This document shows, in pieces, positions 8,333-23,716 of a DNA stretch of 39,721 bases. The notes beneath the pieces are model-generated. The model was not told the origin of the DNA, made no database searches, and saw nothing but the letters and a program-made list of their open reading frames with translations. The DNA comes from Pseudobdellovibrionaceae bacterium (GTDB lineage: Bacteria; Bdellovibrionota; Bdellovibrionia; Bdellovibrionales; Bdellovibrionaceae), in assembly GCA_013359135.1 (NCBI GenBank), contig JABWCN010000042.1, forward strand, positions 1 through 39,721, given 5' to 3'. Each line of letters opens with the position of its first letter. The first letter of the stretch is position 1. The translations under genes and the position numbers were made by a program.

Positions 8333-9256
8333 ATGCTAAACTTAAAGCTTTTTTTTGTATTGTATTTTCTATTGAATCTGACTTTTCAGACGACTTCATT
8401 TGCAAATGATTCTAGAACAGATTTTTATTCTGTCTCTCCAGTTCTTAATGACTTAACTGTAAGGGACATAGGAACCTATTCTGACCTTTCAAAAAAGCCA
8501 CCTCAGTATCTTTACCATTGGATTTCATTTGAATCTTTAGAGAGGCTTTTTTCTAATGAAAATTCAAAAAAACAAATGCCATTGAAATTAGTTGGAACTC
8601 AAGAATATCAATCCTTAATAGTTCAGAATATTCCAGATTTTATCAATGCACCTGGGTTATTTACTTGGCATAGTCCGATTGCTATGTTTGGAGGATCGAA
8701 CGAAATTTATGGTAATGGCGACGCTTTACTTGAATTAAAAGTTAATCCTAGCTCTCGAGTTGGAGTGGTTATCACTGGAGAAACAATCGGTGTTCACAAT
8801 AAGAGTACAAACTCTGAAATTCGCAGCTATGATTTAATTTTGCATATTCGTGCCACAGATTTTAAAGGCAAATTACTTCCACTATACCTTGAGTGGGTAG
8901 TTCTGAATCCACAAGCAATTCAAAGCGTTAAAGCTGACCCAGATAGCTTAGCACCTAAACTAGAATCCTACGCAAAGGCTTTAGACGCTATTGCAAACTC
9001 TGAAGAAAGAAAAAATACTGATCTATCTGATATAGAGCTAGTTGCTGGGCCCCATCACAATGGATATTTGTCGTGGGGTTTGAACGCCAGTGTGATTAGG
9101 AAAAGAATTGCCAGTTTCACTCAGAATAGAAAATATATTCCTTCTTTTTTAAAAGGCGATGGACTCAATTTTAACAAAACGTCTTCATCAAGCAGAACAT
9201 ATCGTTCTTGTTTTCAGTTTTACAAAAATATAGTAACTAAGCCCTTTATTCCATAA
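8333..9256 (+). CDS. Exported protein with ADP-ribosyltransferase-like residue pattern
   Basis: This 307-residue protein has a signal peptide ending near SFAND (about residue 25), so it acts outside the cytoplasm. Residues 60-200 show a spacing like PARP-type transferases: YHW with His62, GLFTWHSP at 108-115, LLELKV at 132-137, and YLEWVVLNPQAI with Glu187 at 185-196. In PARP1 the equivalents are the catalytic His, the GIYFAD strand, a beta strand, and NEYIVYDIAQV with the catalytic Glu. The middle aromatic residue of the H-Y-E triad is not clearly placed. Any enzymatic role is an inference from pattern only. It is a single gene with no partner or obvious immunity gene; the 44-bp element at 9306 follows it. 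The ATG follows GGAAG. Confidence 0.6.
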   Translation: MLNLKLFFVLYFLLNLTFQTTSFANDSRTDFYSVSPVLNDLTVRDIGTYSDLSKKPPQYLYHWISFESLERLFSNENSKKQMPLKLVGTQEYQSLIVQNIPDFINAPGLFTWHSPIAMFGGSNEIYGNGDALLELKVNPSSRVGVVITGETIGVHNKSTNSEIRSYDLILHIRATDFKGKLLPLYLEWVVLNPQAIQSVKADPDSLAPKLESYAKALDAIANSEERKNTDLSDIELVAGPHHNGYLSWGLNASVIRKRIASFTQNRKYIPSFLKGDGLNFNKTSSSSRTYRSCFQFYKNIVTKPFIP

Positions 9257-9305: not shown

Positions 9306-9349
9306 TCGACAAAATTTGTCATTTCGTCTTTTTCTCTACAGTGGAAAAA
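9306..9349 (+). promoter_or_regulatory. 44-bp conserved upstream element, copy 1
   Basis: This segment matches 22217-22260 at 40 of 44 positions; the differences are two TT/AA pairs. The shared core includes GTCATTTCGTCT and TTCTCTACAGTGGAAAAA. In this copy the left end GACAAA-A-TTTGTC is a 13-bp palindrome. It lies 41 bases upstream of the ATG of an exported coiled-coil protein, and copy 2 lies 58 bases upstream of a related-looking gene. A promoter with TTGTCA and TACAGT hexamers (15-base spacer) or a regulator site are both possible. The surrounding DNA is not similar, so this is not simply a recent duplication. Confidence 0.7.
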
Positions 9350-9390
9350 AAATCAGCTTACTGTTAAAGTTCCGTGACCCCGGAGACTCT

Positions 9391-11112
9391 ATGAATATTA
9401 GCTTTACAAATTTAAATAAATTTATAGCTGTTGCCTTGATTTCTTCAAGCTTCAGAATCATGGCAGAAACTACGGCCTGTTTGCACAACTACACAAGCAA
9501 TACACTACCACTTATCAAGTCTTCAATCTCTATAAAAAAAGCTAACCCCTCTGAGAACTATGGAGAAGCTCTTAATAGCTTAATTACCACATTACAACCT
9601 GACGAACGATTAGTCCGCTTAGGGATAGATAAATTCCATTCTGCTCAAGCTAAAGAGAGCACCCAACTTTCCACAGGAAAAAAGGCACTAGTTGAAAACC
9701 ATTTACAAAAAATTATGCCCACAGAAGTAGCACAGCTAAGTTTGAAAAGACTAACCAAACAAAATATTCTTCTTGGGCCTCTTCATGAAATTTTATTTAG
9801 AACCGCACTAAGTGATATTTCAACATCTGGCACCTTTGGAAAAAAAGAGGACCTAATTAAATATAAAAAATCTATGATTCAATCAGAAACTGGGGATATT
9901 TTATTCAGAGAAAAGCTTGCCTCTGAAATGTTTTCTGAACTTAAAATCTTACTCAATTTTTTTGGTAGCTCTTTTAAAAATTTAAGTCATTCAAATAAAT
10001 TAGAACTCATTGAAAAATTTAAAGAAAAAAGATCCAGATTTAGCTCCATTTTTGATTACAAAATCAAAGATGAGACGTTCATTGCAAACATAGAACTTCT
10101 TAACGAAATCACTTCTATTCCTGGCAATGAAGATTTTTTTAAAAAAACTTTTTTTATATCAATGGAATCCATCTACAAAATTTGCTATCATCGCGCTGAA
10201 GGCTCGATTGAAAAAAGTCTTGAGGTTGCCAAATATTCAGTTCTTCCAGCTACTATGGCTTACTTTTCACAGCAGTTTGGATTAGACTCACAAACTATTG
10301 CCTTATTTGGAGGCTTTATTGGACTAGGCTCTGTTGTAGCTTTCGCACATGATTTATCTAGAGAACCTAAAGAATCATTAATTCCGACGTTGAAATCGGC
10401 GCCAAAATCCCTTTGGATTAAGGGGGCTAATTATTTCAGAAGAAAGAATATAGAACATAAGTTAAACTCTGATTTTGATGTATCTTCTATTAACGCTGCA
10501 GCTGAGACTCTTAGCAGTTTAGCACCAGAAGCAGACAGGATAGCTCTTGATTTTGGCAAAATTAAACAAGAGCTTAATAATGGAATACAAGAAGATATTC
10601 ACCTATCCTCTTGGGGTAAAGAATTTTCATCAGGTGTTAGTAATTTGATAACTCGGCTTAATTTCATCCATGAAGAACTAGTTACAGTAAATACGAAAAT
10701 AACACCCATCTTAAACGAAGTTCATCAGTTAAATACGGCCAGAACCTCTAAACAAAGAGAAGCAATTGAAATCCTAAGTGAACAGTACGGTAAGAAATTG
10801 TTTACCTTACTTAGTGACCAACAAGCTATAGAATTAGATCTTATTACGCTATCTCACGCTCTGGATCAATATATTATAGGGCTACAGCATTATACCACTT
10901 CTTTACCAGCTCATCGGTCACTGAATTACGCCCAGCTTATTAACTCAAAGAGTGAAAATTTAAGAAATCAACTTTTAGTCCTTAAAAACTTTGCAGTTCC
11001 ACTAATAGCTTATAAAAAAAACATAAATTCAATTTTGAGTATCTTAGATTTGTCAACGACATCAGTTCAACTTAACAATCTTCAAAATTTGAATTTTGAA
11101 TTAGCTCAATAG
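9391..11112 (+). CDS. Exported helical protein with internal membrane segment
   Basis: I chose the ATG at 9391, after CGGAG; an upstream in-frame ATG at 9271 would put coding sequence through the 44-bp element and bury the signal peptide. From 9391 the protein is 573 residues. The signal peptide ends near MAETT (about residue 25) and the mature protein opens with C-x-H-x-Y-T (Cys30, His32, Tyr34, Thr35). Most of the rest is charged alpha-helix with likely coiled coils, broken by a hydrophobic Gly-rich segment at about 298-320 (ALFGGFIGLGSVVAFA). The gene at 22319 has the same N-terminal motif, helical build, membrane segment and upstream element. Function unknown; a periplasmic or envelope-spanning structural role is possible. 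Confidence 0.75.
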   Translation: MNISFTNLNKFIAVALISSSFRIMAETTACLHNYTSNTLPLIKSSISIKKANPSENYGEALNSLITTLQPDERLVRLGIDKFHSAQAKESTQLSTGKKALVENHLQKIMPTEVAQLSLKRLTKQNILLGPLHEILFRTALSDISTSGTFGKKEDLIKYKKSMIQSETGDILFREKLASEMFSELKILLNFFGSSFKNLSHSNKLELIEKFKEKRSRFSSIFDYKIKDETFIANIELLNEITSIPGNEDFFKKTFFISMESIYKICYHRAEGSIEKSLEVAKYSVLPATMAYFSQQFGLDSQTIALFGGFIGLGSVVAFAHDLSREPKESLIPTLKSAPKSLWIKGANYFRRKNIEHKLNSDFDVSSINAAAETLSSLAPEADRIALDFGKIKQELNNGIQEDIHLSSWGKEFSSGVSNLITRLNFIHEELVTVNTKITPILNEVHQLNTARTSKQREAIEILSEQYGKKLFTLLSDQQAIELDLITLSHALDQYIIGLQHYTTSLPAHRSLNYAQLINSKSENLRNQLLVLKNFAVPLIAYKKNINSILSILDLSTTSVQLNNLQNLNFELAQ

Positions 11113-12235: not shown

Positions 12236-13138
12236 ATGAAGAACGTAAAGCCAATAATATATGAATATACAGATTACCGGTTGTATCTAAAAGCTCTTTA
12301 CGAGTTCGAGAAGACTCATGGTGACTTCTCTTATTCTACCTTTGCTCAACGGGCCGGATTCCAAGCCAGAAGTTATTTGCGCACGGTCATTACAGGAAAA
12401 AGAAATCTAACAGCAAATGCCATTGAAAAAGTGATAGTAGGATTTAATTTAGAGCTCAGTGAAGGCGAAGCTTTTAGGGCCTTGGTCCGATTTAATCAAT
12501 GTCAGAAGTTCTCAGAAAAACATCATTATTGGGATCAGTTTCTAAAACAAAGACCGAAGAAAAGTAAATCCGTTGTGGTAGATGAATACTATTATTTGGC
12601 AAGAATGGCATATCCCATTTTATTAGTGATTTTAAAACAAAATCATATAAAAAACACAATGGAAGAATTATCCAGATTAACAGGACTTTCAAAATCAGAA
12701 CTGCAGGACGGTTTACAGACTTTAGAAAAAATTGGGGCCGTTGTAAAAACCGGAACAGAGTCTTATTCTGCTTCTTTAAATAATTTCAAAACCCATGATG
12801 AAGTTCCCAATGTGGCTGTACAAAAATTTCACAGTAACATTTTAGAAAAAGCTATTGAAGGCCTAAACCTTCCTACCGCAAAAAGAGAATACCAATCTTT
12901 AATTATGGCTCTTAGCGAAGAAGAATTTCTTTATCTAAAGAAACGAGTCAAAAATTTTATGGACGAAATTGAAGAACTTTTCAGTGGTCAAAGACAAAAG
13001 TCTGAAAAAGTTTACTCAATTAATATCAATTTATTACCAATTTCACCTGATTTTATCCGCGAACAAAAAAATCAAGCGAGCCAGAAGTCAGTTCAGGAAA
13101 ACATGATGTCAATGGCATCAGAGGAGAATCAACTATGA
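12236..13138 (+). CDS. TIGR02147-family regulator
   Basis: The 300-residue protein has the family hallmark near the N-terminus: IYEYTDYRLYLKALYEF, then FSYSTFAQRAGF and SYLRTVITGKRNLT (residues about 35-65), a helix-turn-helix-like region. The central part (about 120-180) looks like a second winged-helix segment (MEELSRLTGLSKSELQDGLQTLEKIGAV). The family is known from Bdellovibrio and Fibrobacter; members are presumed transcription regulators but little is proven. The stop codon overlaps the start of the next gene as ATGA, and the metalloprotease gene follows, so all three form one operon. Inverted TGAGAACACTA sites reach to within two bases of the start, which suggests self-control. No normal Shine-Dalgarno sequence is present. 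Confidence 0.9.
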   Translation: MKNVKPIIYEYTDYRLYLKALYEFEKTHGDFSYSTFAQRAGFQARSYLRTVITGKRNLTANAIEKVIVGFNLELSEGEAFRALVRFNQCQKFSEKHHYWDQFLKQRPKKSKSVVVDEYYYLARMAYPILLVILKQNHIKNTMEELSRLTGLSKSELQDGLQTLEKIGAVVKTGTESYSASLNNFKTHDEVPNVAVQKFHSNILEKAIEGLNLPTAKREYQSLIMALSEEEFLYLKKRVKNFMDEIEELFSGQRQKSEKVYSININLLPISPDFIREQKNQASQKSVQENMMSMASEENQL

Positions 13139-22216: not shown

Positions 22217-22260
22217 TCGACAAAAAATGTCATTTCGTCTAATTCTCTACAGTGGAAAAA
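22217..22260 (+). promoter_or_regulatory. 44-bp conserved upstream element, copy 2
   Basis: This is the second copy of the element at 9306-9349 (40 of 44 bases identical), here 58 bases before the ATG of an exported coiled-coil protein. It contains GTCATTTCGTCT and TTCTCTACAGTGGAAAAA. Here the left palindrome is reduced to GACA/TGTC. AGTTGC about 32 bases before it also has a counterpart 23 bases before copy 1. Confidence 0.7.
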
Positions 22261-22318
22261 TTTTCAAATCCTGTTATTGTAAGTACCATCTCAATATATT
22301 GTTTAAGGAGTAGGTCTT

Positions 22319-23716
22319 ATGAAAAATAAAACAGTTGAATTTCTTTTATATTTGTTAGGCTTTACTCTTCAGATTTTTCCTATAAATGTAAAAGCAAGTA
22401 GCAGCTATTTATGCGGACACTACTACACACAAAGTCCCAGAGAAACAAGTTTGACGCAAAAAATGTTGACTCAACTGAACTCAGATAAAAATGTTTTTCT
22501 TCCTTTATTTATAACTGATTTTCTAAATCAAAATTTTGATCAAATTTATTCTCCATTTGATGCACAAGTGCAAAGATTAAGAAAAGTTGGAGACCAAAAT
22601 CAGTTAATTTCAGCAATGAGAATTTTTGAAACGGCAAGAACAGCAAATCAAAAAGCTTTGACTCTCGTTTCCAATGCTTCCAATCAATCAATGTTTTCTT
22701 TAATTCGTTCATCCGAGAGAAGAATTGAAAAATTAGATCAATTAATTAATGAAGCTAATCAATGCAAATCTAAAACTAATAGCTGTTTAGTAGAATTAAA
22801 GACAGCAATGAATGAGTCAAAAGTTAATTTAACTGCAGTTAAAGAACTTCAAGATCAGATAGCTAATTTTCTTTTAGAGATTAAAGACTTGAAAAGTTAC
22901 TTTGAATCCACAATAGCTCATGAATATGACAAAATTGAAAGTGAAAGTGCTCTGCGTGCGATAGAAAACATGATAAGTAAGGTGGAAAGCACACTCACTT
23001 TAACTAGTAATGTAGTCAATATAAACAGGTCTAACCTGATCAGCGCACTAAGCTTACAGGAGGAATTTTATATTCTTAATCAGTCAATAAAGGAGATGGC
23101 CGCCTCTGGACCTTCTTTAGATAAACTAAATATAAATGGGCCCATGGAAATGGTGAATGATTCTAAAACTAAACAAGTTTCACCAAAAGTAGGTTTAATT
23201 AAACAGCGTATTGCACAAATGATGGCCGCCAGAAGGTCAGCCTCCCAAAAATTATCAAGTCAACTTAAGAAATACAAAGCTGTTGTGATCGCCACAGCGG
23301 TTGTTGCCTCTAGTGGTTTAGGTGTCAATACTTATATCGATCATACTGCTCAAATTCGCCAACAACATAAAGAACAAACTCAGGCAGTTCGAGCAAGATT
23401 ACCTCAATTTTATAGTGCTGTTGATATTGCAAAAGAATTATCTAGAGTTGATGCAGATGGTTATAGGTCGACCAAATCTCCAATGTCTCAAGCTGTATTT
23501 AAAATTTATGATCAATACTATAAAGTTATTACTCCTGAGGATTTCGAGTATTTAGTGTCAGATTTAAATGATTCATCTCAAGACTATATTAGAGCAAAAT
23601 TTGTTGAAGAGCTCTCCTCTCGTGGACTAGCAAAAAATGATCCATCTCAGGACTATAATAGAGCAAAAGTTGGTGAAGAGATTTCATTTCGTGGAATAAT
23701 AAAATATGACTACTAA
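22319..23716 (+). CDS. Exported coiled-coil protein with internal membrane segment and C-terminal repeat
   Basis: This 465-residue protein follows AAGGAG. A signal peptide ends near VKASS (residues 24-28), and the mature protein begins with C-x-H-x-Y-T (Cys32, His34, Tyr36, Thr37), as in the protein at 9391. Residues 45-270 are Gln/Glu/Leu-rich helix, likely coiled coil. A hydrophobic segment lies at about 320-340 (AVVIATAVVASSGLG). The last 49 residues are two copies of a 23-residue unit with the pattern SQDYxRAKxxEExSxRG. It shares the 44-bp upstream element with the gene at 9391. Two Cys at 149 and 156 may form a disulphide. It is probably an envelope protein, but the function is unknown. 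Confidence 0.75.
   Translation: MKNKTVEFLLYLLGFTLQIFPINVKASSSYLCGHYYTQSPRETSLTQKMLTQLNSDKNVFLPLFITDFLNQNFDQIYSPFDAQVQRLRKVGDQNQLISAMRIFETARTANQKALTLVSNASNQSMFSLIRSSERRIEKLDQLINEANQCKSKTNSCLVELKTAMNESKVNLTAVKELQDQIANFLLEIKDLKSYFESTIAHEYDKIESESALRAIENMISKVESTLTLTSNVVNINRSNLISALSLQEEFYILNQSIKEMAASGPSLDKLNINGPMEMVNDSKTKQVSPKVGLIKQRIAQMMAARRSASQKLSSQLKKYKAVVIATAVVASSGLGVNTYIDHTAQIRQQHKEQTQAVRARLPQFYSAVDIAKELSRVDADGYRSTKSPMSQAVFKIYDQYYKVITPEDFEYLVSDLNDSSQDYIRAKFVEELSSRGLAKNDPSQDYNRAKVGEEISFRGIIKYDY
23570..23707 (+). repeat. Two tandem 69-bp units inside the gene at 22319
   Basis: Units 23570-23638 and 23639-23707 are in frame and in direct contact (23 codons each), then three codons (Asp, Tyr, stop) end the gene. 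They keep SQDY, RAK, EE and RG but differ at roughly a third of positions, so the duplication is not very recent. Copy number could vary between strains. Confidence 0.75.

Follow-up and report, generated by a model that had tools for sequence, protein, structure and literature searches.

Class II sites of the CRP/FNR regulators read TGTGA-N6-TCACA or a close variant of it and are located at -35, with a usual centre at -41.5. The attack phase of Bdellovibrio bacteriovorus uses promoters of FliA (sigma28) with the sequence TTAAG-N16-CCGATA, and the growth-phase promoters of this organism could not be mapped (PMC3627812). Here we describe an element of 44 base pairs (bp) that occurs twice in a stretch of 39,721 nucleotides from a Pseudobdellovibrionaceae bacterium (contig JABWCN010000042.1, the window). 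Judged from its sequence and placement, the element probably represents the activator-binding part of a sigma70-type promoter common to a regulon of exported proteins. The genome from which the window comes (G000) measures 3.84 Mb in 94 contigs, among which the window is C86.

The element and its promoter layout

The two copies share 40 of 44 positions (91%) and form the top family in a direct-repeat search of the window, which yielded no third copy. As described in the first-pass annotation, the four mismatches all fall in two TT/AA pairs, the DNA flanking the copies is dissimilar, and 41 and 58 bases separate the copies from the ATG codons at 9391 and 22319, respectively. Two stretches of the window match the core pattern, and 100 dinucleotide shuffles contain no match. 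The features of the two loci are:

9306..9349, + strand: element copy 1, with upstream block TCGACAAAATTT, GTCA block, core and -35-like box (profile R1, 48.7 bits, E 2.7e-14)
9318..9341, + strand: putative activator site of copy 1, conserved 24 bp, GTCATTTCGTCTTTTTCTCTACAG (pattern and site alignment)
9342..9347, + strand: -35-like TGGAAA of copy 1 (position-weight profile)
9365..9370, + strand: -10-like TAAAGT of copy 1, spacer 17 bp (site alignment and spacing test)
9391..11112, + strand: gene after copy 1, 573 amino acids, signal-peptide-like N-terminus, without Pfam family
22217..22260, + strand: element copy 2 (profile R1, 49.1 bits, E 2e-14)
22229..22252, + strand: putative activator site of copy 2, conserved 24 bp, GTCATTTCGTCTAATTCTCTACAG (pattern and site alignment)
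22253..22258, + strand: -35-like TGGAAA of copy 2 (site alignment)
22275..22280, + strand: -10-like TATTGT of copy 2, spacer 16 bp (site alignment)
22319..23716, + strand: gene after copy 2, 465 amino acids, signal-peptide-like N-terminus; the element also precedes paralogues elsewhere in the genome

The signal-peptide-like segment at each N-terminus agrees with the exported nature proposed for both proteins. They show no significant similarity to each other (BLASTP best E = 2.9), and Pfam and NCBIfam scans of both returned nothing significant. The first-pass annotation also described them as coiled-coil proteins, which is weakly supported: AlphaFold models, run with 2- and 4-sequence alignments, are mostly helical but of low confidence (mean predicted local distance difference test scores of 43 and 42) and too poor for a fold search.

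Alignment of 40 sites gave the consensus C-n-n-AAWT-n-GTCACTTTGTCTAAATCTCTACAG-TnGAAA, followed by TA at a fixed place. The common layout consists of an upstream GTCA block, the core TGTCTAAATCTCTACAG, a -35-like TnGAAA, 17 bp, and a -10 box TAnnnT. The spacing test was limited to the 36 pattern-selected sites, because the R1 sites are partly selected for the -10. TAnnnT stands exactly at +20 past the pattern in 25 of them, where about 1 would be expected at any given offset (P 8e-30). The search pattern does not include the -10 box, and the fixed spacing therefore supports a promoter independently. At 17 bp upstream of the -10, the -35-like box carries T in 33 and G in 38 of the 40 sites and is degenerate with respect to TTGACA. 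In several weaker sites the GTCA block is missing but the core and -10 are kept, which makes the core the probable essential part. The surroundings of the sites diverge fully in the alignment, with the core and its distance to the -10 constant. The predicted start of transcription follows the element, which is therefore not a transcribed RNA element; no Rfam family matched in the window at the gathering threshold.

Sites in this and related genomes and the genes downstream

A scan of the whole genome with the pattern of the first-pass annotation, allowing up to 3 mismatches, found 8 sites (reversed control 0). The degenerate pattern found 14 (reversed-pattern control 0), and the sequence-only profile R1 found 36 at E < 0.02, two of which precede paralogues that were independently picked up by protein search. 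At G000 C21:33906-34095 (L161) two sites are divergently oriented about 100 bp apart.

In a set of 40 related genomes, each of the five other species of the genus has 4-7 matches to the degenerate pattern. Beyond the genus, matches occur in one further genus of the family and in one of the order; the control gave a single match overall. Against 84,980 species genomes the exact degenerate pattern hit 10 stretches, all titled as Bdellovibrio, Bdellovibrionaceae or Bdellovibrionales metagenome-assembled genomes. With profile R1 at E <= 1e-3, genomes of the genus have 9-31 sites each (9-26 if only the five other species are counted), and there are 17 in a genome of another genus (G021) and 1-3 in other Bdellovibrionales genomes. 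A second profile, built from other lineages, extends to further low-copy genomes, with a maximum of 4 sites (G089). In genus g6, which we take to be Bdellovibrio proper, the models find no copies except one match each in two genomes. In a draw of 291 genomes from the phylum, 3 genomes outside the order have a match, each of them weak. The element is thus restricted to the Bdellovibrionales, with almost none outside the order.

Altogether 112 distinct sites were collected, 108 of them with a downstream open reading frame (ORF). By an N-terminal hydrophobicity test, 97 of these 108 ORFs start with a signal-peptide-like segment, compared with 122 of 240 neighbouring ORFs (Fisher P 4e-13); several of the exceptions, when checked by eye, have a signal peptide missed through start-codon choice. 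Pfam domains among the scanned products include S1/P1 nuclease (in two species), S13 peptidase, GDPD, beta-lactamase-like, S9 N-terminal, TolC-like and PGA_cap; from their domains, the nuclease, the S13 peptidase, GDPD and the beta-lactamase-like protein are plausible exoenzymes. A Cys-x-x-Tyr-type motif after the leader occurs in 31 of the 97 signal-peptide targets versus 7 of the 122 signal-peptide neighbours, which suggests a large, very divergent exported family.

Some targets are paralogous: in its first 115 residues the product of window gene 22319 shares 55% identity with that of C3:73336, and another paralogue, at C58, lacks the element. Near-identical copies of element and gene start are found at the contig ends C19, C22 and C89 (L095-L097), and C-terminal parts 58-60% identical to the window protein 9391-11112 at two other contig ends (C18:5-322 and C21:79309-79623). 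A single gene family with several collapsed copies probably lies behind these contig ends; it did not turn up in the five other species of the genus.

A few loci depart from the usual arrangement. One site (L179, in G074) precedes an NtrC-like sigma54-activator response regulator rather than an exported protein, a single case. Another (L068, on C70 of G000) stands before the gene for a non-exported protein of 216 amino acids without Pfam or NCBIfam match and leaves almost no 5' leader. No element precedes the exported-protein gene at 8333-9256 of the window, although one stands upstream of an apparent relative from another species (L035).

Proposed activation and rival explanations

The first-pass annotation had suggested a common regulator or an unusual promoter, perhaps one that controls a life-cycle stage. 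The idea of a common regulator or promoter is supported by the 14 pattern and 36 profile sites, the signal-peptide genes downstream and the fixed distance to the -10. In the mechanism that we propose, a candidate DNA-binding activator would recognise the core together with the GTCA block, directly upstream of the weak -35, and would bring RNA polymerase of the sigma70 type to the -10 box, which follows after 17 bp. Secreted and envelope proteins of the regulon would in this way be switched on together. Because of the gene contents and the lineage, this output may be a predation-related secretome. More tentatively, and with the odds somewhat against it, the element could be the master activator site for the predatory secretome of a Bdellovibrionales group and play in growth phase the part that the FliA programme has in attack phase; on this view it was amplified in this genus and one other and is nearly absent from Bdellovibrio itself.

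Several points weigh against the proposed reading. The signal-peptide baseline among neighbouring ORFs is already high (51%), the predictor is a crude one, and sites at orthologous genes in different species are not independent. The majority of the scanned downstream proteins have no known domain in Pfam. A dimer site should be internally symmetrical, and here the symmetry is weak (column permutation, P 0.02-0.04), the palindrome at centre 14.5 having P 0.022 over the 112 sites. No regulator gene was found: genomes rich in the motif and genomes poor in it both have members of the CRP-type and DUF4423 families. Of 26 genomes, 25 have CRP-type (PF13545) proteins, whether the regulon is there or not, and the gene counts do not discriminate as a predictor of the regulator; DUF4423 (PF14394) genes are equally widespread and do not discriminate either. 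Each of 26 Bdellovibrionales genomes contains 4-39 members of the TIGR02147/DUF4423 family, and 14 control genomes contain none; literature searches for these regulators gave no description in the papers searched. One such gene, at 12236-13138 of the window, overlaps a gene for an exported protein.

An operator for a repressor overlapping a constitutive promoter is the least improbable of the alternatives, though unlikely, since polymerase could also be blocked from a site next to the -35; repressors do not need exact phasing, whereas 25 of 36 sites have the -10 at one offset, and this phasing, together with a degenerate -35, is typical of activator-dependent promoters. Rather less likely is that the element was kept merely through shared ancestry of downstream genes that are duplicates of one another. 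The paralogous targets, the near-identical starts at three contig ends and the Cys-x-x-Tyr-type motif speak for such descent, but the two window proteins are dissimilar, unrelated enzymes stand among the targets so that clearly non-homologous genes carry sites, the C58 paralogue lacks the element, and the flanks have fully diverged around a fixed core and -10 spacing.

Very improbable is an alternative sigma factor reading an unusually long recognition sequence: it would account for the rigid spacing and the whole exported-protein regulon, but the TAnnnT and the TnGAAA at 17 bp are sigma70-like, and conservation peaks upstream of the -35, outside the normal reading of a sigma factor. A mobile or dispersed repeat that plays no part in regulation, the outcome that the first-pass annotation had set against its own proposal, is scarcely credible even with more than 30 copies in one genome, as the copies are same-strand and promoter-positioned, nearly all before signal-peptide genes with the -10 box at a fixed distance, and their flanks are not conserved. 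The 44-bp pair is neither a chance match nor a randomly dispersed repeat.

The activator site remains the favoured reading. As a signature marking dozens of exported proteins, the element provides a direct list of co-regulated candidates, many of them without a known domain, and could serve as bait to fish out the regulator.

Comparison with described promoters

Literature searches for a matching motif gave no description in the papers searched. With the FliA attack-phase promoters the element has in common that one promoter class serves many genes, in the predatory relative including cell-surface and protease genes (PMC3627812). The present consensus, however, has no CCGATA at -10 and instead a sigma70-like TAnnnT plus a 24-bp upstream activator-type site; by these features it belongs to a different class from the attack-phase promoter of B. 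bacteriovorus.

The core resembles class II sites of CRP/FNR in its TGT-N10-ACA geometry, of weak symmetry, and in its location at -35. It differs in its half-sites, which are TGTCT/TGTAG and not TGTGA, in a centre about 3 bp further upstream than usual, and in the extra conserved upstream block. Ordinary sigma70 promoters share with it the -10 TAnnnT, the -35-like TnGAAA and the 17-bp spacer, to which the element adds a highly conserved upstream site common to the regulon.
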